Assembly (NCBI RefSeq): GCF_965363235.1
Contig: NC_134847.1
Location: forward strand, 53,600,439 to 53,664,438
DNA length: 64,000 nt
Source: Mytilus galloprovincialis
Lineage: Eukaryota > Mollusca > Bivalvia > Mytilida > Mytilidae
Direction of reading: 5' to 3'
The notes under the pieces were generated by a model. The model ran no database searches. It was not told where the DNA came from and saw only the letters and a list, made by a program, of their open reading frames with translations. Of this stretch, positions 1,690 through 62,530 are shown one piece after another. Position numbers and translations under genes: made by a program. Each line of letters starts with the position of its first letter. Within the stretch, counting starts at the first letter, position 1.

Positions 1690-2865
1690 ACTTAACAGGA
1701 TCAAAGAAAATGAGTTCAAGGTCAGATGGACCAAATTTGAAATTCAAATACACCTTACAATCATTCCATACACATTATATTTTTGAAATATTGTCGACCT
1801 TTTGCACATCTGAGAAACAAACTTTACCAGGAAAACTGCATTGAATCAATTAACCAAGAAAATGAGGCCAAATTCACGTGTACACCTTACAATAAATACC
1901 TTAAATATAGTTGACATTTTGGATAGGGTATCGAAGAAACAAACTAAACCAGGAAAACATAAGATGGACCAATACAATAAAAATGAGGTCAATTAGTCTG
2001 ATGATTATTGCCAGACTGACACATACCTAACAATCATTCCATACATATATAGTTGACCTATTGCTTATAGTATCAAAAATAGACACCAAAACAAACTTAA
2101 CGATAGTAATGAACCGTAAAAATTCGGTCAATGTAAAATAAAACATGTACAATGTAAATTTTCATACAACGAATACGGTTGATCTAGTGCATACAGATTT
2201 ATAAAAACGGACCAAAAAACACAAACTTTATTTCACCACTGAACTTCAACCATGAAACTGAGTTGAGGTCGGTGACTACCCGCTGGACATGTACATCTTA
2301 AAATTATTCCATACACAAAAAATATAGCAGACCTCTAACAGTATAAGGAAATCGAAAAAAACCCACAAAAATAAGAACTATAACCATTGAACCATGAAAA
2401 TAGGTCAAGGTCAGATGACTGCCAGTTGGACATTTGCACCTTGCAATCCTCTATACACCAAATATAGTAGCCATATTTGCTTATAGTATCTGAGATGCGA
2501 CTTACCCACCAAAAATTAACCTTGTTAACTGATCCATAAAACGAGGTCAAGTAAAACATGTCTGACGGGCATGAGCTTACAAGGTACGCACATACCAAAT
2601 ATAGTTATCCTATTGCTCATAACAAAGATAGAAATTAATATTTTGCAAGTTCCGTTGTCACCGAACCATGAAATTGAGGTCAAATACAATGGACATGTCA
2701 CAGACGCAAATTTCATAACATAAGGCATCTGTATTTATGCAAAGTATGGAGCATCATGAAGGTCTTCCACCTTCTAAAATATAATGCTTTTAAGAAGCTA
2801 GCTAAAACCGCCGCAAGATCACTTTGTCGAGCTTTCTGCGACTAAAGTCACAGCCTCGACAAAAA
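1690..2865 (-). repeat. Hairpin-headed tandem-repeat element, family A
   Basis: Read on the minus strand, a T-run (2865-2861) is followed by a hairpin at 2860-2826, with arms GTCGAGGCTGTGAC and GTCGCAGAAAGCTCGAC around a 4-base loop. A short GCGGCGG spacer comes next, then about eight degenerate tandem units. The units are marked by the block seen on the plus strand as ACCATGAAAATGAGGTCAAGG, near 1708, 1860, 1980, 2110, 2255, 2393, 2530 and 2667, so the period is about 125-145 bp. I recognise the unit as common in mussels. No convincing long ORF is present; open frames in this stretch are incidental. The distal end near 1690 is approximate. Confidence 0.7.
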
Positions 2866-3040
2866 CTAAAGGCTTTATAACACCAGGGCCATGACAAGCT
2901 TCTTTTAGAAGTGAGGCAACACAAATTTTCGGAGAGGGGTCTCGGGCAGCTGAAGGCCCCCAGAAGCTCTGAAAAATTGACTCAAAATCGTGCATTCTGA
3001 TGGTTTCCCAGACTCTTTCTTTCTCTGAAACGCAATTAAT
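2866..3040. other. Spacer between two repeat elements
   Basis: A short stretch with a locally GC-rich patch (about 2935-2985). No ORF or known repeat could be supported. Confidence 0.3.
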
Positions 3041-4770
3041 TTTTATACGACCGCAAAAATTGAAAATGTTTTGGTCGTATATTGGTATGATGTTGGCGTC
3101 GTCCGAATACTTTTAGTTTTCGTACTCGAACTTAAGTAAAAGTGAATAGAAATCTATGAAATTTTAACACAAGGTTTATGACCACAAAAGGAAAGTTGGG
3201 ATTGATTTTGGGAGTTTTGGTCCCAATATTTTAGGAATTACGGGCCAAAAAGGGCCCGAATAAGCATTTTCTTGGTTTTCGCACTATAACTTTAGTTTAA
3301 GTAAATAGAAAACTATGAAATTTTAACACAAGATTTATGACCACAAAAGGAAGGTTGGGTATGATTTTGGGATGTTTGGTTCCAACAGTTTAGGAATAAG
3401 GAGCCAAAAAGGGCCCAAATAAGCATTATTCTTGGTTTTCGCACAATAACTTTAGTATAAGTAAATAGAAATCAATGAAATGTAAACACGAGGTTTATGA
3501 CCACAAAAGGAAGGTTGGGATTGATTTTGGGAGTTGAGGTCCCAACAGTTTAGGAATTAAGGGCCAAAAAGGGGCCCAAATAAGCATTATTCTTGGTTTT
3601 CGCACCATAACTTTAGTATAAGTAAACAGAAATCTATGAAATTTAAACACAAGGTTTATGACCATAAAAGGAAGGCTGGGTTTAATTTTGGGAGTTTTGG
3701 TCCCAACAGTTTAGGAATAAGGGGCCCAAAGGGTCCAAAATTGAACTTTGTTTGATTTCATCAAAAATTGAATAATTGGGGTTCTTTGATATGCCGAATC
3801 TAACTGTATGTAGATTCTTAAGTTTTGGTCCCGTTTTCAAATTGGTCTACATTAAGGTCCAAAGGGTCCAAAATTAAAAATGAATCCTTGGGGTTCTTTG
3901 ATATGCTGAATATAAAAATGTACTTAGATTTTTGATTATTGGTCAAGTTTTTAAGTTGGTCAAAATCGGGGTCCAAAATTAAACTTTGTTTGATTTCATC
4001 AAAAATTGAATAATTGGGGTTCTTTGATATGCCAAATCTAACTGTGTATGTAGATTCTTAATTTATGGTCCCGTTTTTAAATTGGTCTACATTAAAGTCC
4101 AAAGGGTCCAAAATTAAACTAAGTTTGATTTTAACAAAAAATGAATTCTTGCGCTTTTTTGATATGCTGAATCTAAACATGTACTTAGATTTTTGATTAT
4201 GGACCCAGTTTTCAAGTTGGTTCAAATCAGGATCCAAAATTATTATATTAAGTATTGTGCAATAGCAAGAAATATCTAATTGCACAATATTGTGCAATAG
4301 CTAGAAATTTTCAATTGGAGTTATCTTTCTTTGTTCAGAATAGTAGTTAAATCAACTTAAATCATTGTTTTATACAATATACAATGTATATTCACTTTTA
4401 CTACCAACTGATAAATTAAAACAATCTTTACCATTCAGTGATAACAAGCACTTTATTTTACATTTTAATATTTTATGATGTATTTAAATGAGTAGTTATT
4501 GTTGCAAACTCCATTAGAAATTTGAATTGAGATCAGTTTTGGAAAAAGGGAAAGGGGGATGTGAAAAAAAAAATTGGGGGGGGGGGGGGACTTGTCTCAT
4601 TTCAGATTTCATAAAAAAAAGAAAATTTCTTCAAACATTTTTTTGAGAGGATTAATATTCAACTGCATAGTGAATTGCTCAAAGGCAAAAAAAATATTTT
4701 AAGTTCATTTTTTTTTTTTTTGGTTTTAATAATTATTTCATTGTTGAAGATCCTCCACCGACTATTAAGA
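3041..4770 (+). repeat. Hairpin-headed tandem-repeat element, family B
   Basis: After a T-run, a hairpin with perfect 9-bp arms TATACGACC (3044-3052) and GGTCGTATA (3073-3081) opens the element. A GGCGTCGTCCG spacer follows. Then come about four to five units of roughly 147 bp, each marked by TTTATGACCACAAAAGGAAGG (near 3175, 3335, 3495, 3655). These give way to about four units of roughly 115 bp marked by GGGGTTCTTTGATATGC (near 3778, 3890, 4015, 4145). The tail from about 4250 contains a perfect palindrome, a poly-G run (about 4576-4589) and T-runs. I recognise this as an abundant mussel repeat. The 3' border at about 4770 is approximate. Confidence 0.75.
4279..4298. repeat. Perfect 20-bp palindrome
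   Basis: ATTGCACAATATTGTGCAAT is its own reverse complement. It sits between two copies of a short direct repeat (TTGTGCAATAGC then AGAAAT) inside the tail of the family B element, so it could form a small cruciform or hairpin. Confidence 0.8.
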
Positions 4771-5623
4771 TGAAGAACAGGAATAAAAATGCTGACCGTT
4801 GAATTTTTCTATTTAATGACTTTTTGTGAGAGTATGTCCGTTGCACCTTTACTCCCTATTCCTTTATTTTTCTGTATAATAGTTTTCCGACAGATAAGTA
4901 TATTTATATATATTCATCGGATTTTGATTGATTTATGGATGTCATTTAAAAAATACATAGCCCCGACGTTGCTACCCATTACACCGGGGTATTTAAAGAA
5001 AAATTGAGCCAAGGCATACAAGGTTTTAATCATGGGTAATATCGTATTTGATAGGTTAAAAAAATAACGGCACCATGTCAAAATCAGAACAAAGTATAGA
5101 GAAAACAACTTATCGTGCGAAAAGTCTCATTCTAGAATGACACAGACGAGAAAAAAGGCTTGCATTGAGGCATATTTAACTGTATCTGTGATACAATTAT
5201 TTCAAGATTGATAGAAAAGATGAATTCAACAATGTCACTCGATGATTCATTTAGTGAAGGGAATCATAATATATTGCGGAATGTAAAAGTTAAGCGAAAA
5301 TGTTAGCTTCTCTCTATGTTTTTTTTACAAGCTCATGGACAAATTCTGACTGATATGACTAAAGGATCAATTTAGCAACTTGCCAAGAATAACACAGTTG
5401 TTTTTCATAGGAATACCATATTCTCAATAAAGTTCTTAATGATGTTAGACTATAGAGACGGAACAGAATATTTAGAGTAAATTTGAACAAAGATTTTATG
5501 GCATCATATTATATATAAAGCGGTAATGGAAGAAGCAAACACATATATTTTTACTATTATAATATTATGTAAATAAGTATAATAATTGGAGTTATGTTTA
5601 TAGAGAAACCATGTACACTACAA
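4771..5623. other. Intergenic sequence, 3' flank of P450 gene 1
   Basis: AT-rich sequence. Short open frames here have no recognisable content. The part just below 5624 is the presumptive 3' UTR of the minus-strand P450; no canonical AATAAA could be assigned. Confidence 0.4.
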
Positions 5624-6419
5624 CTAATTCTGTGATTCAACTCCAACTGCACGAAAGGTGTATTGTTCTGGAGCCAACGTAATGCCTAGTTTTCCTTTTA
5701 ATAATGGTAACTTATTTGGATCTGATGGAAGTAGTTTGAATCTCTGCACAAGTGATGTTGTAAAGAGGAAAAACTCCATTCTGGCTAATGACTCACCAGG
5801 ACAAACTCTTCGTCCTAAAAAATAAAATAAATGTAAAGTAACTATAAGATACACTTTTAAAGTAAGCTCCAATTATACTCATTTGATGAGCGCAAAAGGC
5901 TAAAGTCTGACAATTCATTTTAAAATAGAATCACTTTGATTTCCTATCTAACTTGGAATCGTATAAATGCATATTTTATACGTGATTCTAATTTTGTTAA
6001 AGTCATCAGATACTTGATTAATCAAAAAAAACCAAAAAAAACCCAGCATTTACATTCTTTACTGCTTTTTTATTATTATCAAAATAGTGAATATAACTTA
6101 TGTTTTAGATATCAGAGTGTATTATCCATGAGAGAAAACAAGGGGAAATAACTGTACGTTTGGTGCGTTTTGGTATCATAAGAGACACCAGAAATCACAT
6201 CCAGATTTTGGCGGGATTCTTGTTATTCAGTCCCTTTTTTCAGTGAAGCGTTTTAAAAGTAATTGTTGTTATTCCTTTTTGCCTTAATCGTGGTATTTTC
6301 GGTTCCCACAAATGTTTTAATTGTCCTTTTGGTATCTCCTGTCTCAGATTTACGTATATATATATATTTCTCCTTTCAACTTATTATATATGCTTGGTAA
6401 AACTGTTTTTTTTCCACAT

Positions 6420-6454
<35 letters not shown>

Positions 6455-9400
6455 ATGCAGAACAAATAAATCAATTGCACACTTTAAGACAATAATATAG
6501 AATTCACGAATTTGTTTTATGCAATACAGTGAAAAGTCAAATATACACTGCAACTGTTAATATTTGTCTCAACATTATAGAAAATCGAGTACTAAGTTTT
6601 GAACTACATCTTGTTTATTTTAAGGTTTACTATTTTTGCAATTGATTAGAACAATCTTTGTCGACAACCACAGGGTTATATTATGGACCTTTCTATTAAC
6701 ATCTTAGTAAGTATGAATTTATATTTCTATAATTACAAAATTACCCAGACTGAAGACCAACACTTTATCTACATTCACAAGCTTTCTATCTGCATCCAAG
6801 AATCTTGAAGGTCTAAACTTTTCTGGTTCTTCAAAAATTTCAGGATCGTTCAGCACAGAATACAAATTTGGTATAAGCATGGCATCTTTCGGGATCACAT
6901 GACCCTTATAAATAAAATCTTTAGTCAACCCATGTGGAAGACCAAGAGGGGCAATGCAACCAAATCTCAGAACTTCATGTAAAACGGCTTCCGTATAAGG
7001 TAGTTTTCCCCTATCATCCATACATGGATATCTAGATGTTCCAATGACGTCACTGATTTCTTGTCGCATTAAAGTTTGGACTTCTGGGTGATTTATTAGC
7101 AATACTATAAACCACTGCATAGCCGTTGATGTCGTTTCAGTTCCCGCTACAAACAAGTCGCCTATTGTTTTTAAAAGCTGCTCGTCTGAAAGAAATACAA
7201 ATGCAAAATATGAATTATCAGATAGTCACAATCGGCAGTCCTCGGGTAAATCCATTACCCTTCTTCTATCCCGAGATGAAGGTACGGAATCGGCCGAGTT
7301 GTGACGAATGAGATAGTCAGTGTATTTTGTAAACATGTATTTAATAAGTTGATCGTAATTCTTCATCTGAAACAGGAAACAAATGAAAGAAAACGACAGC
7401 AGAATTTTAAGGATATGCACAGTCATTTATTTTCAATATATGCTTTACTATTGTACTTGATAATCAATATAACCTGTAAAATATCAGTGTTTAAGTATAT
7501 ATATGTTTACAATAATCTCTGTTTAAAGTACACTAATTTAACCTTCCTTTTTTTTGGAATATAATGAATACAAATTAGGAAAAGAAAAAGAAATGTTTGT
7601 TGTTGCAATATGCAATGCACAATTCATATAGTGGTAATTGATGTTTAATACTATTATATTGTACAACATTTAGTATAATTTCAAAACAAAAAGAACATCT
7701 TATTATATTCCTTATGTAACTTGAGAAAACAATCATACATATTGTGTTCAGAAACTTACGATCAAACGTGGAGTTTGGATTGCCTCCCTCTGATTTCATT
7801 CTTTTTAAGTAGACATCGACATAATCTCGCAGATATTTTTCATCATATGTGTCCTCGTGTTCCTTTACGACCAACGTAAGATGTTTTTCCACGTCATCAG
7901 CATTACGAAGATTACGTTTTAAGCCAAAAGGATCAAAAGGAATATGTTTGAGAAAAGGAAAAATGGTAGCCACAAACATTATATTGGTGTTGCTCAGATT
8001 TTCATTAATTTTTTCCAAAAGTGACATGAAAAATTCGTCAGTGTGTTCATAACGTTGACCAAAGTTTATTGAACACATTATATTGGAAACACACAAAGTC
8101 AAAAGTCCTCTGATATTGAATGGTGTTCCACGTTTTTCTTCGATGGCTCTAATCAAAACTTCAACCTCTTCCATTACTTTAGATTCCAAACTTTTCTTAC
8201 CAAACCCAAACTCGCGTAGTGCTCCTATTGCAAAAGTTCTGTGTTCTTTCCATCGCGGACCAGACGAACTTGCAATGCCTAAAATTAAATGAATTTAATA
8301 ATAATGTTTATTTGACACAAAACATATACGACAAGTAAATCTTATTGATGGAAAAACCATGTAAGTGTAATTTCAATTTTCAGCATGTGTCTGTTTTATA
8401 TTTTTTTTCGTATGTTATAGAACTCATTTTTTGGCCTTTTTTATGATCTAGACTTAAGAGTCCATACGGTGTTTCTTTTGTAGAAATATCCTTATTTACT
8501 ATATGGTTACATCAATTTAATTTGAATCCATATTAAAGATAGAGAGAACAAGGTTTTCTTATTCTTCTGGTATACAGTTACAGCTTATGAACTGTTGCAT
8601 GCGCGGAGTATATGATTAAAATATGAACAAAAATTTATCTTTAAATTTGTAGAATACTTGGTGATATTTACATGAAAGAAAACAACAAGTGATTAAAAAA
8701 TATGTACATTGTTATTAATAGAATTAAATTATGTTGTGGAGAACAGTTGGTGTCAACTGATCTCTATAGGTCATGACAATGAGCCCATGGATGACCTTGT
8801 AGAACATGATAAGTCTGGTTTTGAGGCGGCGCTCAGTGAGTGAGGGCCATTAATATTGTAGTTCGTTTAACATGGATGTAACACTACAGGTGTTGTGGTA
8901 ATTGTTACATACATATCGTGCCGCACGCCTCTGTACCATTTCTAGCTTATTTTTGAAGCTATTCACGATCTCATGACTGCAAGTAATGTCGTGATGTCTT
9001 TCACTTTAAATACAAGTGAAAGGTTTAGCTTGCTATAAAACCAGGTTTAATCCACTATTTTCTACATATGAAAATGTCTGTATCAAGTCAGGAATATAAC
9101 ACTTGTAACACATCGTTTATGTACTGGTATTTGAGTTTTTGATTTTGCTATTTTATTAGTGATTTTCCGTTTTGAAATTTCCGCGGAATTCAGTATTTTT
9201 GCAATTTTACTTTTTAAATAAGAGACATTTGGGTTGAATTACTTTTTGTTTGGTTCAACCGCTAATGAAAACATAATTATGGAAAATACAACTTTTTTAG
9301 ATTCGAACTTCAAAAGTTACCATGTCTGAGAAATTCAATTTTGAAATGATGCTATTTTTTGACGGAAACCTCACAAATTGACAAATTAAAGTTTCGTTAA

Positions 9401-9773
9401 TTCACAGACGACATTCTAGATCACAAAGTCAAACCATGCACTCACCTTTATATCGACTAATTTCTTTCGCAATAAACATATCAGGACGTTCTGACGTTAC
9501 ATCTCCATTTTTGATGAAAACTTCTTTAAGTGTTTCTAGTCCATTAAATACGACCATTGTTTTGGATCCCAATATTAAACTAAACACATCACCATACTTT
9601 AGCCTATATTCTCTGAAAGCCTCTGGTAAATTGTCCAACTTCACGTTTAAGTTTCCCAGAAATGGTATTGTCGGTGGCCCCGGTGGCAGTGTGACATTTC
9701 TGGTGGTCTTTCTCCACAGAATGTACAGACAAAAGCCACAAAATAACAGAAGCACTGTTGATAAGTCAAGCAT
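5624..9773 (-). CDS. Cytochrome P450, CYP2 clan (gene 1), complete, four exons
   Basis: Coding exons on the minus strand are 9446-9773, 7760-8278, 6745-7185 and 5624-5814. All junctions have GT/AG ends and the phases agree, giving 492 residues, a normal CYP2 length. Residues 1-20 form a hydrophobic anchor ([20 protein letters not shown]), followed by the hinge LPPGPP. Visible P450 landmarks are the C-helix WKEHR (W119, R123), the I-helix AGTETT (296-301), ExxR (E353-R356), the PERF-like FRPSRF, and the haem loop [11 protein letters not shown] with the thiolate ligand C434. The last motif is assembled across the exon 3/4 junction. Known of the family: microsomal haem monooxygenases fed electrons by NADPH-P450 reductase, oxidising xenobiotics, fatty acids or steroids. 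The substrate cannot be told here. The ATG at 9771-9773 lies directly before the anchor. Exons 1-3 have exactly the lengths of gene 2 (20780-25284), showing tandem duplication. Confidence 0.95.
6421..6453. repeat. Poly-A run in P450 gene 1 intron 3
   Basis: About 33 consecutive A residues on the plus strand, preceded by a short TA repeat near 6355. A simple-sequence tract with no evident function. Confidence 0.8.
9010..9215 (+). repeat. Dispersed mussel repeat in P450 gene 1 intron 1
   Basis: The stretch has the order GTGAAAGGTTTAGC, AAACCAGGTTTAATCCAC, TGTATCAAGTCAGGAATAT, then GATTTTCCGTTTTGAAATTT and CAGTATTTTTG. The same order recurs near 36258-36384, 37610-37805, 50565-50775 and, reversed, 48440-48680. 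It is non-coding here. I recognise it from memory as a frequent mussel repeat; its class is unknown to me. Confidence 0.6.
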
Positions 9774-9854
9774 TGTTACATCAAGTTTTGAATGTTGTGC
9801 TTCTTATGACTTTCACAATACCTAAGCTAGAACTTCCTTTTCATTATCTTATAT

Positions 9855-9865
9855 CATGTATATAT
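9855..9865 (-). promoter_or_regulatory. Candidate TATA element of P450 gene 1
   Basis: On the minus strand ATATATACATG lies 82-92 bases before the start codon at 9773. The same 11-mer lies at nearly the same distance (80-90 bases) before P450 gene 2, which supports a conserved core promoter. The start of transcription is not visible. Confidence 0.4.
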
Positions 9866-9873
9866 TAAGTACA

Positions 9874-12244
9874 GATAATAATGACGAAAAAGAAATTTGT
9901 TATTACAAGCATTCAAATGATGAAATAGCTTTAAAGAAATCGATTTAGTTGTTATTGACCGTATAACCTTGTTCTATAATTAGATCACAGTATATGTATA
10001 CTGTGTATTATCTGGCCTATTTCAACATGTTCAACCATTATGTATTTTATTCAGTTATACAATTCAACTGATATCAGTGTTTGCTAAAAAATGACCAATT
10101 TGACGTTGCAGTTATTATTTCAAATTAAAAAAAAATATGTATTGAAGCAAGCCTTTATAGAGGGGGAGGGGGGGGCAAGGGGGTCCCCATAACAGCAAAA
10201 CAGTGAATTGATTTGGTGGAAAACAGATAACAAGGAATTGAAAAGGGATAATAACAGATAACAGTAAATGAAATATGAAAATAAATCTGCCCAGGACCAA
10301 TCCAGTAGATGACTCGTAGATCTTAGTATATAACTTGTGGTATGGACCTAGAAAATTTTAAATAAGTTATAGTATGATTGTTGAATTTTTCTGAACGAAA
10401 TTACTAGTTTCTGTTTTTGATATAGGGATATTTTTAATCTAGGGCATTTGAGGGATCAATTGTTAATGATTTAGGTTTTTTTATTTAATTTTTGAAAATA
10501 GTGCAGCCAGTGACAATTTATTATCAATTTGATTTTTAGATTTTTTTCTTCTGAAAAGCAATATATATACTTTACACGTAATAAAAAAAAAATTGATGCA
10601 CAATATATTTTTTTTATTTAATGACCTCCTGATAAAACTTACTTATAAAATACAAAAATACCCACATCAGTTGAGACAGGACATGTAACTGAAACACGCA
10701 TGCCAGTTATGGTTCTTCTGATAATAGAAATTGCCTCAAATGACAATTCTGATAGTATAATAGAATTTGGACCTATTGAAAATTTGGATGACACCAAGTG
10801 AAACACCAATCATGCCTCTTATGTGAAATTATAGAATATGGAAAATTTGGGTACAGCATGGGAGAAGCTGTAGGATTTTAAAAAGGGTATTTATCGAAAA
10901 ATTAAACTGAAGACACATCTTTATTTGCATCAATGGTTTCAGAGCTTCAATTTTCGCCATGTGAAGCAGTTAAAAAACTTTTAAAAATATGGTGGTCAGG
11001 GTTCTCTTTCATGTAAATGAAAAGAGAGGGAGTAGCACTTATAATATAAATGCTAAAAGAAAAAGATGTTGTATAATTTCAAAAGCCATAATTCAAACCC
11101 ATACCACTTAGTAATGTAAAATAATTCAAAGGAGAAAACTAACTGCCTAATTTATCCACAAAATAGTGAACGAGAAACTTAGTAACACAGTAACAAACTA
11201 CAACCACTGAATACAGGCTCCTGACTTGGAAGTAGGCACATACAGAATGTGATTGCGTCAACGTTAGCATGCTAGTTGGTGTCCAATCCTCCCCTAGTCA
11301 TGGACAGTGGTGTAACAGTACATCATAAAGATTATTATGTGGTCATTGAATAAAAATAATCTATAGGGTGTACCAATGCTTTTGATAACAAAATCCATAC
11401 TATAAGTTATTGTACAAGTAATAAGTAAATTATAATTTGTACAAAATGCTACATGTTCACAGACAATGGAATTTAATACAAAGTATAATAATAATATATA
11501 CTGGAATGGTCCTGGGTCCAATTGATTTTAATATGTTTATGTGATGTATGTTACTGAAATTCTTCTGCAAATACAGGGCCACCCGATATTACCAGTAGAA
11601 AGACCCCAATAGATATACATTGTAAGAAGATGTGGTAAGCGTGCCAATGAGACTATAATCCATTCAAATCACAATTTTCAACTATCTTCAAATTCTACGG
11701 AAGATTTGTTGTCAAAATGCTAACATTCCAGTTTTCAAAAACAGTTAACAGCAAATACATTCTCACAATAACAGATAACAAAATAGATAATAGTCCTATA
11801 ACAGCTAACAAAGAATAAGTCAATAACAGCTAACAGTAAATATATTTTCAGAATAACAGATCACAAAGAATTAAAATGCCCCATAACAGCATAACAGTTA
11901 AACCCCTTGCCCTCCCTCTTTATAATTATTTCGTGAAAAAAGAAAAAGAAAGGAGAAATCATAGGTAATTAAACCTCTTTAAACAGCAAGCATAATTAAA
12001 AAAGGGAAATAAATATGAACAATATGACAAAACGAAAAATCTTAAAAGACACGGATTAACAGCGATACAAACAACCTTACTTCGAAAAAAAGATACGGAA
12101 ATCACGTATGAGAAGGGTAAGCAGTTACCACTCTACTGGTGAAACTCTCTGTTTTGCTCATTCTAAGTTATATCCAAGTTGCAATGGGAAAATTTTATGA
12201 ATAAAGAAAAGAAGTGACGACAATTTGAAAATATGTATACGTGG
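9874..12244. other. Intergenic region with ACAG-rich repeats
   Basis: No supported gene. Two stretches rich in AACAGATAACAG and AACAGCTAACAG occur at about 10165-10290 and 11735-11910. Each adjoins a G/C tract: a G-rich one at 10154-10190 and its C-rich inverse (CCCCTTGCCCTCCCTCTTTA) at about 11895-11920. A diverged copy of the GTGCCAATGAGAC dispersed repeat lies at about 11625-11680. The rest is AT-rich sequence with only short, incidental open frames. Confidence 0.45.
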
Positions 12245-19164: not shown

Positions 19165-19470
19165 ACTAAAACAATTCAAAGTTTGGTGACTATGTTAGAC
19201 GCATCTATTCCATCGAAATTAAAATCAACGGTACTACAGATAGTGCTAAGTCTGCTAATATCATGACTTACAACTAGATATATTAACAATAATGGTCGGT
19301 TGAAAACAAAACTGAACGATAAAAGAGAATTTGAAAAATCTCTTCGTAAATTTTATGGACGCTATGTCGAGTTGGTTGACCGTTATGAAATATCTGTTTC
19401 ACAGATAAAGACGAATATGTTCGAATTGTCGTAACCAAAATCCTGTTCTCTTATCCCCAAATGTGACCAA
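19165..19470 (+). mobile_element. Penelope-like retroelement fragment (C-terminal part)
   Basis: The plus strand holds a segment reading FYGRYVELVDRYEISVSQ, which aligns by eye with the ends of the other Penelope-like pieces at 35060-35820 and 49330-49540 (pattern F-x-x-x-Y-x-x-L-V-D-x-Y-x-x-x-x-S-Q). An old, broken fossil fragment, clearly incomplete. Assignment to Penelope-like elements rests on memory of the family. Confidence 0.5.
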
Positions 19471-19479
19471 CCGAATTTG

Positions 19480-20420
19480 ACTTATCACCGGGTTTGTACT
19501 GACATGAGCGTCAGAGGATGTGCTTAATCATCCGGAGAAACTGATATCACCCCTGGTGGGGTTCGTGTTGCTCACTCTGTTTAGGTTTAGGTTTAGGTTT
19601 ATTTTTATGTTGTGTTATGTGTTCTTAGTTGTTTTTGTCTTTTTGTCTTTGTTTATGCGATGATGTTTTCATTTTATTTTATAATTTATAAGTTCATTTG
19701 GTATCTTTCGCCTCTCGTTCAAAGTGTTTACATTCAAAACGGACAAAAATGTTATTTCCTGTTGAGACACGCGCTAACATTGCGTAAACGAGGGTAATAT
19801 ATATTCCGTGATATATAGATAAAGGCAACAGTTGTAACGCTGTTCAAAACTCATCAATCCATTGACAAAAAACAAAATCGGGGTAACAAACTAAAACTGA
19901 GGGACACGCATTAAATGTAAGAGGAGAACAACGACACAACATTAAAATGTAACACACACAGAAACGACTAAGCATTAGACAAAATCCTATTAGAATAAAA
20001 AATATAACATATAGAACTACGGTTGCAACTCAATCAATCGATTGTTGCCTTTAAACGACTAAGAAAGCTCCGTATTAGTTTGCGTTTTAAGCTTTCAAAC
20101 AGTTTGATATTTTTGCATTGATACATTTGGTGTCCATTTCGGAATTTGAGGTCCTACATGCTCATATTTTATTTAGAATATTTTTACTTTTTAAATTTTA
20201 CCGTCACAAGTGAGCCGCTCGTCTAGAAAAAAAATATTTGTTTTTAGTCTGGTGTCTATGATTAGTTTTTTTGTAAAATTGAAGCCGTCCTACTAGTGTA
20301 GGAATTTCTCGCTGCGTTGAAAACCTATTGGTGGCCTTGGGATTATTTCTGCCCTAGGTCGGGTTATGGTTTCTTTGACACCTTCCCAATTTTTTTATTC
20401 TGAGAAGTTAGACTATGAAG
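19480..20420. repeat. Cluster of dispersed mussel repeats
   Basis: Three recognisable pieces lie here. At 19480-19800 is a reversed copy of the ACAACGCCATGGCTA family end, including CCGGAGAAACTGATATCACC and GGTATCTTTCGCCTC. At 19840-20010 is a block with AAAATCGGGGTAACAAACTA and AGAGGAGAACAACGACACAA, repeated at 31140-31330. At about 20270-20420 is GTTGAAAACCTATTGGTGGC then GGTTTCTTTGACACCTTCCC, whose 3' end resembles the 465-bp repeat unit at 32012. None is coding. Confidence 0.55.
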
Positions 20421-32011: not shown

Positions 32012-33091
32012 TGGACGCCAATCTTTGCTCCTTTATTATAATATTCACTAACTAAACAATTATGAAGCTTAGAAATGGAAAATTACTAAATACTAAACTT
32101 GTTCAAAGGGTATCTTGTTGTCTCTTTGACACATTCCCCATTTCCATTCTCAATTTTATTTTTTACAGAGTTTGTCTTTAGTGCCGTGTGGAGGCAGTAG
32201 AGTACCTCCCCGTGCTTCAGATTTATGATCTTATAATATACTAGATTATGGAGTGTGTGTCCGAGCGAGAACTGCTCTAGTTCATTACTTTAGGAATATT
32301 TATCAAAAAGTAGTATTTCAATATTCAGCCCCATTCTACTATTTAGTCAGCCACCAGTCCTACCCTGATATACCCTATCTTTTTCGGGTAATTTATACTG
32401 ATAGCGTTTGACATTTTTAGCCGAACAAATTTATCCATTTTATATAACTTAAATTATTGTATGCTGGTTCATATTCTGGACGCCAATCTTTGCTCCTTTA
32501 TTATAATATTCATTAACAAAACAATTATGAAGCTTATAAATGGAAAATTACTAAATACGTAACTTGTTCAAAGGGTATCTTGTTGTCTCTTTGACACATT
32601 CCCCATTTCCATTCTCAATTTTATTTTTTACAGAGTTTGTCTTTAGTGCCGTGTGGAGGCAGTAGAGTGCCTCCCCGTGCTTCAGGTTTATGCTCTTATA
32701 ATATACTAGATTATGGAGTGTGTGTCCGAGCGAGAACTGCTCTAGTTCATTACTTTAGGAATATTTATCAAAAAGTAGTATTTCAATATTCAGCCCCATT
32801 CTACTATTTAGTCAGCCATCAGTCCTACCCTGATATACCCTATCTTTTTCGGGTAATTTATACTGATAGCGTTTGACATTTTTAGCCGAACAAATTTATC
32901 CATTTTATATAACTTAAATTATTGTATGCTGGTTCATATCCTGGACGCCAATCTTTGCTCCTTTATTATAATATTCACTAACAAAACAATTATGAAGCTT
33001 AGAAATGGAAAACTACTAAATACTAAACTTGTTCAAAGGGTATCTTGTTGTCTCTTTGACACATTCCCCATTTCCATTCTCAATTTTATCA
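32012..33091 (+). repeat. Tandem duplication: two full 465-bp units and a partial third
   Basis: The marker TGGACGCCAATCTTTGCTCC occurs at 32012, 32477 and 32942, giving two units of exactly 465 bp and about 150 bp of a third. The copies differ at only a few positions, so the array is recent. Each full unit contains TCTTGTTGTCTCTTTGACAC followed by ATTCCCCATTTCC, the end of a common mussel repeat, and a GGAGGCA...TGCCTCC hairpin (near 32653-32672, with one mismatch in the first copy). An open frame in the second unit is incidental. Confidence 0.85.
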
Positions 33092-33245: not shown

Positions 33246-34190
33246 CATTTTTAACCGGATTTTTGTGACAAAAATGTCGGTTATTGATTTGGAGATGTAC
33301 GGCGGGCGGTCGGGCTGGCGGGCGGCAATCAAATGTTGTCCGTGCATTAACTCATAAACCGTTCAACCAAAGCTTTTAAAATTTTAATATGTTATTAATG
33401 ACAACTATACGAGGGTCAAGTTCAATAATGGCGATTTTGACTTTTACCGTTCAGGAGTTATGGTTCTTGAAAGATTGAAAAATGGAGTTTCCAGTCGTGT
33501 CCGTGCATTTACGCATGAACTGTTCTACCAAAGCTTCCCAATTTTAATATGTTGTTACTAATGACAGAATGGAGGTCAAGTTAAATAATGACGAATTTTA
33601 CTTGTTCCGTTCAGGAGTTATGGTTCTTGAAAGATTGAAAAATGGAGTTTCCAGTCGTGTCCATGCATTTATGCATGAACTGTTCTACCAAAGCTTCCGA
33701 AATTTTAATATGCTGTTACTGATGACAAAATGGAGGTCAAGTTCAATAATGACGATTTTGACTTTTACCGTTCAGGAGTTATGGTTCTTGAAATATTGAA
33801 AAATGGTGTTTCCCGTCGTGTCCGTGCATTTTCTCATGAACCATTCAACCAAAGCTTTTGAAATTTTAATATGTTGTTACTGATGACAAAATAGAGGTCA
33901 AGTTCAATAATGACGATTTTGAATTTTACCGTTCAGGAGTTATGGTTCTTGAAATTAAGATCGTAAAATGGCGTTTCCATTCACGTTGTTGCATTTACTC
34001 ATGAACCATTCATTCTAAGCTTTTCAAATTTTAATATGTTGATACTGATGACAAAATGGAGGTCAAATTTGATATTGACGATTTTCACTTTCACCATTCA
34101 TCAGTAATGGTTCTTGTGATATTGCCAGGACACAAATAAATGTTAATAAATCCGGTTTGTTGTCGTTGTGACAGCCTCTTGTTACTATTT
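33246..34190 (+). repeat. Hairpin-headed tandem-repeat element, family C
   Basis: After a T-run ending at 33252, arms AACCGGATTTTTGT (33253-33266) and ACAAAAATGTCGGTT (33268-33282) form a near-perfect hairpin. A spacer rich in GGCGGGCGGTCGGGC follows, then about five units of roughly 160 bp marked by GTCCGTGCATTTACGCATGA-like blocks (near 33338, 33499, 33659, 33819, 33983). The end near 34150-34190 contains AATCCGGTTTGTTGTCGTTG and GTGACAGCCTCTTG. Open frames running through the units are incidental. Confidence 0.75.
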
Positions 34191-54160: not shown

Positions 54161-55884
54161 ATACAATACTAGTTCCAGTGTTAACAGCGCGTTTGTTGGG
54201 CTACACAGGAACTAAAAAAGCATTTAAGGCTTTTATAAATACATTGAAATGTATGTGTTTATAAGATTTCAAACCTCCCCTTATGAAGAAACACTGTTAA
54301 AAAGAAGTCCGATTCTGATGTAAGAACATGTCCGTGAAGTTACTTGACAAAATGATCATCATAGGTTACACTATTATACCGCATTTAAATTAACGCTGCA
54401 ATCCTTTTTAAGAATTCTAAGTAAATATTAAAAAAACAAATTTCCTTGAAAATATAAAGATTCTACATAGCAGGAATAAAATTGACAAGATAATTTGTTT
54501 CCTGATAGCAATATACAATGTTATCCCCCCTTTTATAACAAACTTAAAATATTACTTTCTTTAAACCGATACACTGTCCTTTATAAAAAAAAAAGTAAAA
54601 GTAGCAAATAAATGTTGATTATAAAAGACAAAATGTATAAGTAGACTATACTAAGTAATGACAACATATACATATATGCTTACTTTTTTAAATATCAAAT
54701 ATGAAATAATACATTCCATTTTGTTGATTTTTAAATTTTCGAAGCACATTCCTGTATAAATCATCATCACAAAGTGAATTTCTCCATGCAGTGAAACGAA
54801 AAAGACAAAAAAGCAAGAAAGGGAGAAATAGAATGATACGAAGAAAGAATAAGAACATACACATTTGCACTAGCAGTAAGAAAGAATAAAATGTATCCTT
54901 AATTGTAGAAACAAATTATAAAATGTTATTTTTATACGAGACTGAAACACTGTAATTCCTTACCCTTGGCTCAGATGTCTATGGAAACAATGACACACAA
55001 CGGCGCCTAAGAGATTTTATAGCAATAAATGTAGGTCAGCAGATTGTATTATCAGAAAAGCATGAATTCAAACTTATATACTAGACGACAAAAGCAACAC
55101 TCCAAAGTTCAGCATGTTACATATATAATTAAGTATAACAATATTTGTGTTTGATAGGAAACATTTATTTTTAGATAGATTTATTAATCAGACAACCCTC
55201 TTACTTTTTTGTTCAACCTTTTGTAATTGTGTCTAATATGTTTAATGCTCAATGTCAATAACTTTGAATAGCTAGCTGCAAGCATTGGGGTTTGACTTTC
55301 GGAATAAAAAGTTACTCGAAACAGGTTGTGCAAGTATATAGACAGGTTTAACCCCAACAATCGAGCAGTAAAAAGAATATACTATTGAGAAAATCAAAAC
55401 TAACAACACTATAAGAAATGAAAAAATTATATCACAATCAAATGCTTGTCCTTTTGAGTAAATAATGGATACACTAATCCCTACTTTTATTTGCAGACTA
55501 TTTTGCTACTGGTGCTTATGATAATTATGAAATTCTCTCCTGTTTTTTTTTTTAATGAGAGTGGCGTTGTTGTTCAAATAACGGTGTAAATCTTTGTATT
55601 TGGTTGCAAAAATCTACAAATTTATGTATCGTTTCATTTGTTTATTAGTATAGATATCCGACTGTACGCACTGAACAGATAAAACATGGAACAAATTCAA
55701 GTTTGTTATGTAGGACGCAATACTATATATCGTTGGATTGAGAAAAGAGTTAAACTTCCCACAATTCGCGTACCTTATAATAGCATTACATACAGTGTAG
55801 GATAGAACTTAAATCGTGATTCGCCCACTAAACCTTGTCTATGATAAATATTGCATTAGTGCAAATTAAAAAGTTACCAAACCT
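54161..55884. other. Upstream region of the peptide gene, no other feature
   Basis: AT-rich sequence. The promoter and any non-coding first exon of the peptide gene should lie here but no signal is decisive. Short minus-strand open frames are F/L/I-rich and not called. Confidence 0.35.
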
Positions 55885-56010
55885 GTTATATAAATTACAC
55901 TAGAACACACCGTACGGTGACCCATAGTTGTTAATCTCTGTGTCATTTTGGTCTCTTGTGGAGAGTTGTCTCAACGTGGCAATCATACCACATCTTCTTT
56001 TTTTTTTGTA
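55885..56010 (-). repeat. Dispersed mussel repeat (GTGCCAATGAGAC family)
   Basis: Reversed, the segment reads AAGATGTGGTATGATTGCCA, GACAACTCTCCACAAGAGAC, CAGAGATTAACAACTATGGG and CACCGTACGGTGTGTTCTAG. Related pieces are at 868-930 and 11625-11680. The CACCGTACGGTG core is a 12-bp palindrome. Confidence 0.6.
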
Positions 56011-56226
56011 ATCAATGAATTCTGTAAAAGATTTAATGATTGTAGAATTTCAGAAAAGGTGATTGGAGAATTTCAGAAAAGGTATCAAAAGTTCACATGA
56101 ATAATTTATAATTTTAGTGCTTATCTGTATATTATGAACATTCATTACTCGATATAAATGAAGTGTATTTACTTTCAATTCTAAGTTTACTAATCGATCC
56201 ATGGTGGTCATTGATATAGTATACAG

Positions 56227-57195
56227 ACCCTCTCTATTTGATAAACTCTGTGACCGCCTTGGATAGTAAACTTGAAAATGATAGCAGATAAAATTCTGAA
56301 AATACACTTTATTCGTAGTATATATGTATGTTCAAAGTATACAGAAAAACGCAAACCGGAAGTCTAATCTGACTTAAAATTTCATCCAATGACGGGACAA
56401 TATCCGGATGCCTTTTTTCTCGTTTTTCTCCCAAAATAACTCAATCTGAATAATCATATGAATGGATGACAAATGCGACTATGCACTGTACCTATAGGAC
56501 ACATAGGCGTGTTGATTAATTTATTGTGGAAAGAAGAGAAGCGACACACAAAAAGAGGTCTTCTCGTTTAATAGTATAGATAGTATAGATAATCACTTAA
56601 TGCGAAACACAAACGAATTTTGGTTAGAGCAAATTCAGAGACAAAACAAACTTAAGAAAAACTCAACAATCATTATAAACATGTAAAAACAGTTAATAGT
56701 GGTCATCTTTTCTCAGTTCCAAAGACACTTTTATAAAAGAAACAACTGTTGTTATATCATTTAATGTTGGTGAATTTAGTATACATGGTATACTAGTTAC
56801 TAATATCCCCAGTAGTCAACTGTGTTGACATGAGTAATCATTGACATGGTCGTATTATCAATTTATAATTTTGGAAATACTAAAGCTTTTTCTACCTCAA
56901 GAATAGATTACCTTAGCTGTATTGGCAAAACTATCAGGAATTTTGGTCCTCAATGCTCTTCAACTTCGTAGTTTATTTGGCGTTTTGAATTTTTTTGGTT
57001 ACGAGTATCACCGATGAGCCTTTTGTAGACGAAACGCGCGTCTGGCGCAAATATAAAATTTCAATCCTGGTATCAATGATGAGTAATAATATATTAAGGT
57101 TAGTTGTTTTAAAAACAAATTTTACATTGAATTATTTAACAGGTCAAAACACATTGACGTAATTTTCATGTTTTGTTTATTTAAAATTTTTGTAT
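56227..57195 (+). repeat. Direct duplication, copy 1 (about 965 bp)
   Basis: Runs from CCCTCTCTATTTGATAAACT to TTTTGTATTTTCCTCAT and matches 58929-59890 with roughly 98 percent identity by eye. It contains a CGCG-type repeat at 56930-57090 (GACGAAACGCGCGTCTGGCG). No coding capacity is supported. The spacer between the copies is about 1.7 kb. Confidence 0.85.
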
Positions 57196-57239
57196 TTTCC
57201 TCATCCACGGTGGGTATGGTTGTCCTGCGAGAGAACGTT

Positions 57240-57645
57240 CTGTGCTGGTGATTCGGTCCTGACGGGTGCTGGTGATCAATGAAAAAATGTAAACAAAGAC
57301 GAAAATGATGATTTTTGACGTTTTCACTCATAAAAAATGGAAGAAAACAGTTGAGATTTTTCAACTTTGTTTCTTATGGGTTCATATGTAAACCATTAAA
57401 AACTTGACTCTCTAAACTGTTTCAGTAAGCGTAACACAAAAATGCTCATTTTCAGAAAATCTAGCACTGAAAAAATAAAACAAAAATGCTCATAGAGTCC
57501 GCTTTCTACACCGCAATCCACACGACAAAACTATTTTGTGAAAAAAACATTGCAATTTATTAAAATTTAGCATTTTCTCAATTTATTAATGTCCTGATAC
57601 TGTGCTGGTGGGTCCTGATACGGTGCTGGTGATTTCGGATAAGAA
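57240..57645. repeat. Scattered CCTGATACTGTGCTGGTG repeats
   Basis: GTGCTGGTG with GGTCCTGA occurs twice near 57243-57275 and twice more, in tighter tandem, near 57591-57635. On the minus strand the tandem encodes STVSGPTSTVSG, but no gene is supported. Confidence 0.5.
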
Positions 57646-58440
57646 GTTGGTCATATTTGAAACAAATGTTACAAAATCAATAAAATTGGGCAGATAATTG
57701 TTGTCAATAGAATCTATGACTCCTATTTTAGCTCTTGTGCATCCATTTGGCTGTTTAATGTGTGTTTTCAAATGATCGTAACTTGTATTACATAATTACA
57801 TAAAAGGGCAACATCTGTCGTCCAATATCAGATAACAATATATAGTATCTAAAATAAGAATAGTTTTATTAAGATATTAAATGCCCCTTACATTGATGCT
57901 TCAACAATGATCAAAGCCCATGCCGCATAGACATGTTTGTTAGCGCTCCGAATACCCCTCCCCACTTCCACCCAACCAACCCTCCTCATTTCCTCCTTCA
58001 TTGTTACAGTGGTGTACCAACACAACAATTTATCACATAAAATAATAACACAAAGACACACATTATTGAACAACGAATGCTCGCAGATACTGAAAGCTAG
58101 TTCAAAGCCGCATTTTCAACTAATAGATAAACCATGTTCTCATATACAAAAATCCTAATCGTGTCGATTAAAAAAGTCTTAAAACTTAAGTTCACATTTT
58201 AATGTTTGATGAAGGCAGAACTTTAAAAGTGTGCAGTGAATTTTGTGCTCACAACAGTTATTGTCATTATTATGTTTACATAAGACTTATAAAGGAATTA
58301 AGAATGTACCAAGAAATATTTTACAGTTCAATTTAATGATCATGAATGGAAGGAAAAGGTACGGAAGTTTACATAGGACAAAAAGAAATTGATAGTATTT
58401 TTTGGCGAAAGACTTAAACGCTTCTTTGCATTATATAGTA

Positions 58441-58718
58441 CAGCTCTTCTATAAAAGCATGCAAAAAAAAAAACTTTGATTGACTTGCTTGCTATGTTTG
58501 CTTGGATGTTTTCAAACAATAGGTAGGCGGAGTTTCAATACATACTGGGATTTGATTAGACAAATACAAACTGACAGGAATTGAAGTTAATGTTTATTGT
58601 CAAAACAAATTCTAGTATATAGTAAACAGACTACTTACCTGTCGTTTACAAACATCCAAACAATCATAGCAAGCAATTTTATCAATGGTTTGCTTTGCAT
58701 ATATTAATAGAAGAGCTG
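58441..58718. mobile_element. 278-bp MITE with long inverted ends and TA target duplication
   Basis: The ends are CAGCTCTTCTATAAAAGCAT and, reversed, CAGCTCTTCTATTAATATAT. Similarity continues inward for about 80 bp (GCTTGCTATG, TTGGATGTTT). TA dinucleotides flank both sides (58439-58440, 58719-58720). A TA duplication with CAG termini is typical of Tc1/mariner-type elements. No coding capacity, so a non-autonomous copy. Confidence 0.75.
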
Positions 58719-58928
58719 TAAATTCTAAAAAAAAAAATTCTTGTTGTCGTAGATGGTTAAATCCTCAACAAAATCTCAATAACTTTGTTGGAACGAATAA
58801 AGGTTTTAAATCAAATTTTCGTGGACTTTTTAGCTTCCACCCTGACGAGGCATGCTAGCTGTTCGTATGCTGTTGCACCTGACGCACGGAAACTTTCACA
58901 TTTCCATCTTCTTTTCTGAAATATTTTA

Positions 58929-59890
58929 CCCCTCTCTATTTGATAAACTCTGACTGCCGTGGATAGTAAACTTGAAAATGATAGCAGATAAAATTCTGAA
59001 AATACACTTTATTCGTAGTATATATGTATGTTCAAAGTATACAGAAAAACGCAAACCGGAAGTCTAATCTGACTTAAAATTTCGTCCAATGACGGGAAAA
59101 TATCCGGATGCCTTTTTTCTCGTTTTTCTTCCAAAATAACTCAATCTGAATAATCATATGAATGGATGACAAATGCGACTATGCACTGTACCTATATAAA
59201 ACAGAGGCGTGTTGATGAATTTATTGTGGAAAGAAGAGAAGCGACACACAAAATGAGGTCTTCTCGTTTAATAGTATAGATAGTATAGATAATCACTTAA
59301 TGCGAAACACAAACGAATTTTGGTTAGAGCAAATTCAGAGACAAAACAAACTCAAGAAAAGCTCAACAATCATTATAAACATGTAAAAACAGTTAATAGT
59401 GGTCATCTTTTCTCAGTTCCAAAGACACTTTTATAAAAGAAACAACTGTTGTTATATCATTTAATGTTGGTGAATTTAGTATACATGGTATACTAGTTAC
59501 TAATATCCCCAGTAGTCAACTGTGTTGACATGAGTAATCATTGACATGGTCGTATTATCAATTTATAATTTTGGAAATACTAAAGCTTTTTCTAACTCAA
59601 GAATAGATTACCTTAGCTGTATTGGCAAAACTATCAGGAATTTTGGTCCTCAATGCTCTTCAACTTCGTAGTTTATTTGGCGTTTTGAATTTTTTTGGTT
59701 ACGAGCGTCACCGATGAGCCTTTTGTAGACGAAACGCGCGTCTGGCGCAAATATAAAATTTCAATCCTGGTATCAATGATGAGTAATAATATATTAAGGT
59801 TAGTTGTTTTAAAAACAAATTTTACATTGAATTATTTAACAGGTCAAAACACATTGACGTAATTTTCATGTTTTGTTTATTTAAATTTTT
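58929..59890 (+). repeat. Direct duplication, copy 2, interrupted near its end
   Basis: Matches 56227-57195 and includes its own CGCG-type repeat (59630-59790). At about 59890 it is interrupted by the family E element; a last short stretch (ATTTTCCTCAT) resumes at about 61653. The insertion therefore came after the duplication, or the duplication copied an empty site. Confidence 0.8.
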
Positions 59891-61650
59891 AGCTCACCTG
59901 GCCCGAAGGGCCAAGTGAGCTTTTCCCATCACTTTGCGTCCGTCGTCCATCGTCCGTCGTCGTCGTTAACTTTTACAAAAATCTTCTCCTCTGAAACTAC
60001 TGGGCCAACCTAAACCAAACTTGGCCACAATCATCATTGGGGTATCTAGTTTAAAAAATATGTGGCGTGACCCGGCCAACCAACCAAGATGGCCGCCATG
60101 GCTAAAAATAGAACATAGGGGTAAAATGCAGTTTTTGGGTTATAACTCAAAAACCAAAGCATTTAGAGCAAATCTGATATGATGTAAAATTGTTTATCAG
60201 GTCAAGATCTATCTGCCCTGAAATTTTCAGATGAATCGGACAACCCGTTGTTGGGTTGCTGCCCCTGAATTGATAATTTTAAGGAAATTTTGCTGTTTTT
60301 GGTTATTATCCCGAATATTATTATAGATAGAGATAAACTGTTAACAGCAATATTGTTCAGCAAAGTAAGATTTACAAAAACGTCATCGTGACCGACATGG
60401 TCAGTTGACCACTTTAGGAGTTATTGCCCTTTTTAGTCCATTTTTAACCATTTTTCGTTAATCTTAGTTATCTTTTACAAAAATCTTCTCCTCTGAAACT
60501 ACTGGCACAAATTAATCCAAACTTGGCCAAAATCATCATTGGGGTATCTAGTTTAACAAATGTGTGGCGTGACCTGGCCAACCAACCAAGATGGTCGCCA
60601 TGGCTAAAAATAGAACATAGGGGTAAAATGCAGTTTTTGGCTTATAACTCAAAAACCAAAGCATTTAGAGCAAATCTGACAGAGTAAAATTGTTCATCAG
60701 GTCAAGATCTATCTGCCCTGAAATTTTCAGATGAATCGAACAACCTGTTTTTTGGTTGCTGCCCTGAAATGGTAATTTTAAGGAAATTTTGCTGTTTTTG
60801 GTTATTATCTTTAATATTATAATAGATAGAGATAAATTGTAAACAGCAATAATGTTCAGCAAAATAAGATCTACAAATAAGTCAACATGACCAAAAATGG
60901 TCAGTTGACCTCTTTAGGAGTTATTGCCCTTTATAGTCAATTTTTAACCATTTTTCGTAAATCTTAGTAATCTTTTAGAAAAATCTTCTCCTCTGAAACT
61001 ACTTGGCCAAATTAAACCAAACTTAGCCATAATTGGGGTATCTAGTTAAAAAAAATGTGTCCGGTAACTCGGCCAACAAACCAAGATGGCCGCCATGGCT
61101 AAAAATAGAACATGGTGGTAAAATGCAGTTTTTGGCTTATAACTCAAAAACCAAAGCATTAAGAGCAAATCTGACAGGAAGTAAAATTGTTGATCAGGTC
61201 ACGATCTATCTGCCCTGGAATTTTCAGATGAATCGGATAATCGGTTGTTAGATTGCTGCCCCTGAATTGGTAATTTTGAGGAAATTTTGCTGTTTTTTTT
61301 TGTTATCTTGAATATTATTATAGATAGAGATAAACTGTAAACAGCAATAATGAACAGCAAAGTAAGAACTAAAAATAAGTCAGTATGACCAAAATAGTCA
61401 ATTGACCCCCTAAGGAGTTATTGCCCTTCATAGTCAATTTTTAGCAATTTTCTTAAAATTTGAAGATTTTCAATAACATTTTCCACAAAAAGTACTGTTA
61501 TAGATAGAGATAATTGTAAGCAGCAAGAATGTTTGGTAAAGTAAGATCTACAAACACATCACCATCACCAAAACACAATTTTGTCATGAATCCATCTGTG
61601 TCCATTGTTTAATATTCACATAGACCAAGGTCTTTAGAGCCTCTAGTTTT
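59891..61650 (+). repeat. Hairpin-headed tandem-repeat element, family E
   Basis: After a T-run, arms AGCTCACCTGGCCC (59891-59904) and GGGCCAAGTGAGCT (59908-59921) pair with one mismatch around the loop GAA. A GTCCGTCGTCCATCGTCC spacer follows. Three units of roughly 500 bp begin TCTTCTCCTCTGAAACTACT (near 59983, 60482, 60981), each with CCAAGATGG and TTATAACTCAAAAACCAAAG, and a shorter last part follows. The end is near GGTCTTTAGAGCCTCTAG. I recognise it as very common in bivalves. Open frames inside are incidental. Confidence 0.85.
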
Positions 61651-61679
61651 ATTTTCCTCATGCATCTTCCATAATCTTT

Positions 61680-61740
61680 TAACGCGCGTCTGGCGTATAT
61701 ATTAAATTTAGTCCTGGTATCTATGATGAATTTATTTACA
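61680..61740 (+). repeat. Short CGCG-repeat fragment
   Basis: ACGCGCGTCTGGCGTATATA with GTCCTGGTATCTATGATGAA. Another small piece (ATGCGCGTCTGGTGCAAAAA) lies at about 62626. Confidence 0.65.
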
Positions 61741-61986
61741 TTGCTTTATGTATAATTTAAACTGGTAACGTACGTGGGAACACAATAAAAAACACTTTGG
61801 TAAAATTCTTTTATCTCTGTAATGATGTATTTTTAACATTATTATTGTGTTCCTAGGCTGCGCACGATGTATCCAAAAAGAAAATATGGACTGTAATCTG
61901 CATTCTTTCTAGTTTTCGTTTCCATCAAAAAAAAACCGAGGTGCATATATGCTGTTATTGTGACGTTCGACTTTTGCTACAACTTT

Positions 61987-62530
61987 TATGGTCCCGCAAC
62001 GAAGTTGTCGGTGCCATATAGTGTTACCCTTGTCCGTCATTCTGTCATTCCACAACAAACCATTATACAGAGGTTTTTTTTTCTAAACGCCGTCAGATAA
62101 TTGGCTGATTTTTGGTATGTGAGTTAACCATGATGAGTTACAGATCAAATTGAAGTTTTGTTCCACTCTGCTAATTAATGCCGAAATTACGGGCTATGAC
62201 TTTGATAAATTGTTGAAAGTCACAGTTATACGGACTTTTTTTCTAAACGCCTTCAGATATAGGGCTGATTTTTGGTATGTGAGTTAACCATGATGAGTTA
62301 CAGATCAAGTTTCAGTTTCGTTCCGCTCCGCTAATTTTTGCCAAAATGAAGGCTTTACAACTTTGAAAATCAGTTATAAGGACTTTTTTCTATATGCTTC
62401 CAGATTTTGAGCTGATTTTCGATATGTGAGACTACCATCATGTTTGCGTCCACATGTGTTATTGAAATTGCAGATTTTTCAACTTTTTGAGACGGGGCCA
62501 TTCGTGTCGCTTTAAAACATCTAGTTTGTT
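61987..62530 (+). repeat. Hairpin-headed tandem-repeat element, family D
   Basis: After a T-run, arms TATGGTCCCGCAAC (61987-62000) and GTTGTCGGTGCCATA (62004-62018) pair around the loop GAA. A short spacer with GTCCGTCATTCTGTC follows, then two and a half units of about 125-150 bp (CAGTTATACGGAC, CTAAACGCC, GTGAGTTAACCATGATGAGT) near 62085, 62235 and 62375. A headless copy is at 39740-39990. Confidence 0.75.

Follow-up and report, generated by a model that had tools for sequence, protein, structure and literature searches.

A 64,000-nucleotide stretch of the Mytilus galloprovincialis genome (NCBI RefSeq assembly GCF_965363235.1, contig NC_134847.1, positions 53,600,439 to 53,664,438; referred to here as the window, whose own numbering is used below) harbors copies of five repeat families, A to E, which we consider with high confidence to be non-autonomous Helentrons (HINEs), that is, short, gene-less elements moved in trans by the Rep/helicase of rolling-circle Helentrons. 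The anatomy of HINEs is described in PMC7492417 and PMC4067079. Element A, on the minus strand, retains both ends (1599 to 2865) and comprises a T-rich pentamer (2865 to 2861), the left hairpin (2860 to 2826), diverged units, and a right end, ...GTGCACTCTGG, at 1599; this copy possesses a weak subterminal inverted repeat (subTIR) and no right stem-loop. The remaining elements lie on the plus strand. Element B (3040 to 4709) begins with its pentamer (3040 to 3044) and a left hairpin from 3045, followed by units of approximately 160 bp (3113 to 3741), a second unit type (3764 to 4242), and a right flank extending to approximately 4709, near which the right end is lost. Element C retains both ends (33248 to 34181), with its pentamer at 33248 to 33252, the hairpin at 33253 to 33282, a GC-rich spacer, 161-bp units at 33337 to 34116, the right subTIR AAATCCGGTT at 34148 to 34157, a stem-loop, and CTCTTG up to 34181. 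Element E (59886 to 61646) is composed of the pentamer (59886 to 59890), the hairpin (59891 to 59921), a GTCC-rich spacer, units of approximately 502 bp, and a damaged right end which has lost its subTIR and runs to CTAG at 61646. Finally, element D, again with both ends (61983 to 62524), displays the pentamer CTTTT (61983 to 61987), a hairpin from 61988, 160-bp units, the subTIR CGGGGCCAT (62493 to 62501), and TCTAG up to 62524.

The original prediction had described a single architecture common to the five families, and this was confirmed, each of the predicted heads representing a hairpin behind a T-rich stretch and belonging to a dispersed family. When folded as single-stranded DNA and compared with 200 dinucleotide shuffles, the window hairpins yielded z scores of -2.3 (A, 6 shuffles as good), -3.3 (B, 1), -2.8 (C, 2), -2.3 (D, 7), and -4.7 (E, 0). 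Single hairpin copies are only moderately better than chance, and it is genome-wide conservation which decides that the hairpins are real: exact majority-form copies number 3,125 (A), 1,349 (C), 105 (D), and 2,732 (E), with no occurrence of the reversed-pattern control in any of these families, and the search for the B head returned 2,692 candidates, the best matches being 91 to 100% identical (best 40 of 2,692 scored). Scoring took in the best 40 copies of each search, which under-represents diverged ones; the assembly may, furthermore, contain duplicated haplotypes. In all five heads the left subTIR is paired with a nearby complementary repeat. The loop GAA common to D and E was borne out, as was the exception made for D with regard to the spacer, which is not universal. 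The T run, formerly regarded as the start of each family, was reinterpreted in part: T residues do precede every hairpin, but the run is largely target sequence, and the elements start with AG, AT, AA, or GT directly after the pentamer. Tandem units are present as described, with the qualification that B holds two successive unit types and that the units of A in the window are weak and strongly diverged or eroded (offsets 122 and 270). The Tandem Repeats Finder output for the window included, of the five families, only B and C.

Borders were compared in 8 loci of C, 30 of E, 30 of D, 4 of B, and 4 of A. The left anchor was found in 67 of the 68 C, E, and D loci (L060, without anchor, was excluded), and nearly all anchored copies start at the hairpin, the sequence 5' of the T run varying from copy to copy. 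A border at the hairpin, which the original prediction had proposed as a check, was in this manner examined in part, and copies of every family start there. The right border is sharp wherever a locus extends to it, many E loci and some others stopping short or being interrupted, and 43 left-right pairs were obtained, a number in which the C and D copies of the window each figure twice and the E pairs L027 and L033 are possibly mispaired.

A feature overlooked in the original prediction is that B, C, D, and E end in the inverted first arm of the hairpin (the subTIR), a second stem-loop, and TCT(A/T/G)G-TT. The majority right ends were read as TGCGGTCGTATAAA-GCTGCGCCCTGCGGAGC-ATCTGG for B, AAATCCGGTT-T-GCTGTCGTTGTGACAGC-CTCTTG for C, CGGGGCCAT-TCG-TGTCGCTTTGACA-CATCTAG for D, AGGTGAGC-GACACA-GGCTCTTTAGAGCC-TCTAG for E, and GGCGAGAC...GTGCACTCTTG for A. 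In B, C, D, and E, the segment before the right stem-loop repeats the beginning of the left hairpin as its reverse complement; the longest perfect match between the left 16 nt and the family's own right end amounts to 11, 10, 9, and 8 nt, respectively, with 0, 0, 0, and 12 of 2,000 shuffles as good. Matches of left and right ends across families measured 3 to 7 nt, except for an A/T-rich match of 9 nt between the left end of C and the right end of the coding family H1 (see below). The right stem-loop of C is clear (z -4.0). A motif scan of the window for a stem-loop followed by TCTWGT found none of the right ends identified later.

Of 106 left ends, 75 have precisely five T ahead of the hairpin and 84 have five or more, counts which include the window copies (C, L001; E, L009; D, L039) and the overlapping loci L044 and L045, and which are biased somewhat upward because the left search pattern itself held TTTTT (at most five mismatches over its length). 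By family, exactly five T were present in 7/10 (A), 8/14 (B), 8/9 (C), 15/31 (D), and 37/42 (E) left ends. Of 58 right ends, 56 have two or more T after the final G. For the empty-site search, the flanks of paired copies were joined with the pentamer omitted, and an uninterrupted counterpart was sought; were the pentamer already in place and two bases added upon insertion, the empty site should be 3 nt longer than the joined flanks. This predicted gap was found for A (L036, inside an E unit, best counterpart 97% identical), for B (L075, 89%), and for C (L008, 80%, where the counterpart is the opposite arm of an inverted repeat that the locus contains). The joined flanks of D copy L051 (220 nt) are spanned across the junction at 93 to 94% identity in all 40 scored places, 37 of which measure 223 nt, once more 3 nt longer than the joined flanks, an agreement in length alone. 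Nested insertions of E (L064), B (L048, with one base different), and a further family, G (L085), in the CTGATTTTT site of D units agree with these results. Insertion in most sites read thus occurs directly after a pre-existing T-rich pentamer with a net gain of two T, and nothing in the empty sites points to a duplication beyond two T; the gained TT may be either a 2-nt target duplication or the element's own end. The common target preference proposed originally accordingly holds for most sites, while two of those read deviate. The flanks of L051 also align with window positions 19200 to 19508, but this was rejected as a clean empty site, a larger nested insertion being involved; by eye, the sequence in which this copy landed, with 1,781 first-look candidates genome-wide, resembles a reverse-transcriptase-type frame.

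A candidate source of the mobilizing activity was found among coding elements. The Helitron_like_N profile (PF14214) has 138 matches in the genome, a number of them within open frames reaching 3,163 aa, and 28 of the 138 (profile bounds 70 to 191) constitute the group designated H1. Four H1 copies contain open frames of 2,630, 2,662, 2,656, and 2,665 aa with a Helitron_like_N match, and the first 1,317 aa of one frame include DUF6570 and a Herpes_teg_N-type domain. The right end of H1 is AAGGTGAGCGACACAGGGTCCTTGGACCCTCTAG-TT, i.e., the right end of E with the stem altered on both sides, such that the stem covaries (GGCTC/GAGCC in E versus GGGTCC/GGACCC in H1). It was read in five of seven regions around the expected place, and for the remaining two copies the exact pattern was located at a greater distance downstream; genome-wide, this pattern occurs 175 times and its reversed control is absent. 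When the first 100 of the 175 places (contigs C1 to C6) were compared with the 68 Rep matches there, 17 of which are labelled H1, a right end was located within 25 kb downstream of 16 of the 17, in 14 cases at 6.5 to 7.8 kb; two overlapping fragment matches not labelled H1 likewise had one downstream. In the shift control (200 steps), an average of 0.065 of the 68 Rep matches had an H1 right end.

At the opposite side, the left end was followed in three of eight H1 copies (C10:34569121, C1:130098570, and C1:86677597), and all three start with the left end of E, comprising 38 of 38 nt, the GTC-rich spacer, and E tandem units. These elements span approximately 17.5, 17.3, and 16.8 kb, each contain a Rep match and an open frame of approximately 2,650 codons, and are preceded by non-E sequence in the C1:130 copy and by an E unit in the other two. 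When the initial 621 bp of the C1:130 copy were compared with 30 E loci, all 30 aligned, at 86.8 to 94.4% identity over 462 to 625 bp. The array is separated from the open frame by non-coding DNA which includes a nested D, itself carrying G, and, in other copies, a B. Seven of eight H1 upstream regions read carry D-type sequence, and the eighth, L096, has a C right end. An assignment of the left end of D or B to H1 was dropped because shared sequence passes the left end of D and all three copies followed begin with that of E; the C1:130 and C10 copies share more than 2.5 kb past the left end of D, and L100 shares blocks at 72 to 92% identity. Of the exact D hairpins listed (100 of 105), none comes closer than 71.5 kb to any of the 138 Rep places. 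Several H1 copies (L071, L085, L086, and L092 to L097) contain nested D, G, and B pieces upstream (once C), and because some are common to different copies, composite elements have multiplied.

It is, therefore, proposed that H1 is likely the autonomous partner of E, as judged from sequence. The element kind itself is known; what is new is a putative autonomous partner for this family which already carries the tandem array. Shorter elements bearing both H1 ends are also suggested by the spacing of hairpins and right ends: on C1 below 49.2 Mb, an exact E hairpin lies 1.4 to 1.9 kb upstream, on the same strand, of three of four H1 right ends, whereas the fourth belongs to a Rep-bearing copy whose nearest same-strand E hairpin is 30.8 kb upstream. 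Alternatively, E and H1 may have come to share ends solely through recombination or nesting, E being moved by another, unseen autonomous element. Most of the E right ends read carry the stem GGCTC, those of H1 the stem GGGTCC, the two right ends are identical at no more than 34 of their last 60 positions, and the nested D, G, and B pieces in H1 copies demonstrate that composite structures occur, all of which would fit such an origin. We nevertheless regard it as unlikely, given that the three H1 copies with the left end of E are preceded by differing sequence and that the close spacing of E hairpins and H1 right ends recurs in three of the four places examined.

The assignment of the five families to HINEs and of H1 to E has to be weighed against a number of observations which point the other way. 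Family A is the weakest member: it shares the border, the target, and the last bases, but its perfect subTIR match is just 4 nt, with two mismatches in the first 9 (1,689 of 2,000 shuffles as good), its left end has a longer match to the right end of E (7 nt) than to its own, and no right stem-loop was found (190 of 200 shuffles as good). Taken one by one, the stems formed at the right ends of B, D, E, and H1 do not reach significance (z -0.7 to -1.9). Of the 106 left ends, 22 (half of these, 11, from D) have fewer than five T ahead of the hairpin. With regard to empty sites, the E-type H1 on C10, located in an E unit, gave a gap of 4 nt in the best alignment and 3 in the next, B L074 a gap of 2 nt adjoining a one-base difference within a local tandem array, and C L002 a gap of 1 nt in a variable T run. 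The putative Rep/helicase/endonuclease character of the H1 protein is read from its Pfam match and the length of its frame; for one of the 17 Rep matches labelled H1, the places listed on C1 to C6 include no right end up to 25 kb downstream; and the right ends of E and H1, with 31 identities over the last 36 nt, have just 34 over the last 60.

On balance, B to E are classed as further HINEs, and A is placed there with reserve because one defining feature, the right subTIR, was sought and not found. The borders in common, the anatomy of both ends in B to E, and a target rule which mostly holds support a single kind of mobilization mechanism, of the rolling-circle type, as had been suggested, in place of five coincidences. 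Of the machinery then named, the Helentron type is retained, on the evidence of Rep-bearing elements with the left end and right subTIR of E, and the canonical Helitron is not. A reading in which the families are cut-and-paste transposons resembling miniature inverted-repeat transposable elements (MITEs), or fold-back transposons, and the hairpins are terminal inverted repeats, might draw on the short inverted repeats in the left and right ends and on the fact that pearl was originally called a MITE (PMC7492417). It appears very improbable, as in B, C, D, and E the right inverted repeat is subterminal and a second stem-loop comes after it, the empty sites give no hint of a duplication beyond two T, and the coding relative of E matches Helitron_like_N. 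Ordinary satellites spread through array recombination or replication slippage, with coincidental architecture, deserve next to no credence despite a period near 160 bp in three unrelated families, a period described as favored for satellites (PMC8268682), given the sharp borders at both ends (43 left-right pairs) and the absence of the whole element from empty sites.

The anatomy described here is similar to that of Crassostrea gigas Cg_HINE, which possesses a left subTIR with complementary repeat, a right subTIR with palindrome, a T-rich target, and a GTCY/GTCC/GTCK microsatellite with a satellite-like array (PMC7492417); the likeness is one of anatomy, not letter by letter, and, unlike in that study, the T run was seen here to pre-exist in empty sites. 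Satellite-like arrays are known to ride on non-autonomous Helentrons in bivalves, and the oyster study reported ten autonomous elements which were not relatable to its HINEs (PMC7492417). In contrast, a coding element with long open frames is proposed here for one HINE family, E; no published partner for any bivalve HINE was found in the literature searched, subscription papers and Repbase being outside that search. The elements also resemble DINE-1/HINE and Helentrons, with palindromic subTIRs near the left end, a right stem-loop, a TT preference, and a partner with shared ends (PMC4067079), from which A differs in having no right palindrome. For Culex, the Ts are assigned to the element itself (PMC4067079), whereas here the pentamer is target and approximately two T are gained. 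Canonical Helitrons (criteria in PMC4067079) are resembled in the Rep match of the coding relative and in the CTRR-like right end of D, E, and B. When the canonical features (5' TC, 3' CTRR, and an A^T target) were examined, the set was not found; there is no 5' TC, the target is a T-rich pentamer and not A^T, and A and C mostly end in CTTG. The pearl elements of bivalves (CvA, CvE, and CvG) have short ends around a tandem core, a plan to which the present elements are likened by description only. Pearl is named in PMC7492417 and PMC11136912.

Under the proposed Helentron mechanism, Rep would nick at the element ends and one strand would be copied by rolling circle, the right stem-loop presumably marking the stop of copying. 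Placement after the T-rich pentamer in T-rich DNA was observed, and its being driven by Rep is presumed. The E-type HINEs may descend from H1-like elements through loss of the coding middle, the tandem array being inherited along with the left arm. As the array is also present in the coding element, directly behind the left hairpin and spacer, its capture by short elements is not needed. We tentatively entertain, with considerable doubt, that the hairpin, GTC-rich spacer, and array constitute a single cis module belonging to the autonomous Helentron itself, perhaps a Rep/helicase origin or loading platform. If so, the module would be kept by selection while its sequences turn over, unrelated families would converge on one plan, and satellite-like arrays would spread as working parts of elements and not as captured cargo. 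The presence of the array within the coding element renders the origin of such satellites testable, as later capture versus inheritance with the left arm, and the empty sites provide a candidate target rule, namely, a T-rich pentamer with approximately two T gained.

Comparison of right ends with other coding elements yielded no partner for A to D (H1, H2, L083, and L084 were compared; no sequence-based search was aimed at partners of these families). H2, another coding family (frames of around 3,000 aa), was rejected as a partner, its right end matching none of A to E. That end, common to the two copies read (L081 and L082), consists of GGTGGAAAGACC, the CAATTGTTC stem, and GTTTTT, or, as also given, GGTGGAAAGACC followed by CAATTGTTCTCTGAACAATTG and GTTTTT, which is another subTIR type. 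An endonuclease domain was found in two other Rep families only (L083 and L084, one copy each), for which no right end of A to E was present within the 4 kb read. Two further families resemble the same plan by eye: G (L085), with the head ATGCCCCACCTACGATAGTAGAGGGGCAT, a GTCC-rich spacer, and, in L071, the right end GGGGCAT...ACATTCTTG, and K (L100), with the head ATACCCCCGC...GGGGGTAT and a GTCC-rich spacer.

Within the window, a short motif around CGCGCGTCTGGCG was noted by eye beside elements near 59735, 61690, 62630, and 63660, as variants in both orientations. A tandem duplication at 32012 to 33089 (465 bp, 2.3 copies at 97%) stops 158 bp before element C, and four 57-bp units with 96% matches are located at 974 to 1201. 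Positions 240 to 420 resemble, by eye only, the last exon of an arginine/serine-rich (SR-type) protein.

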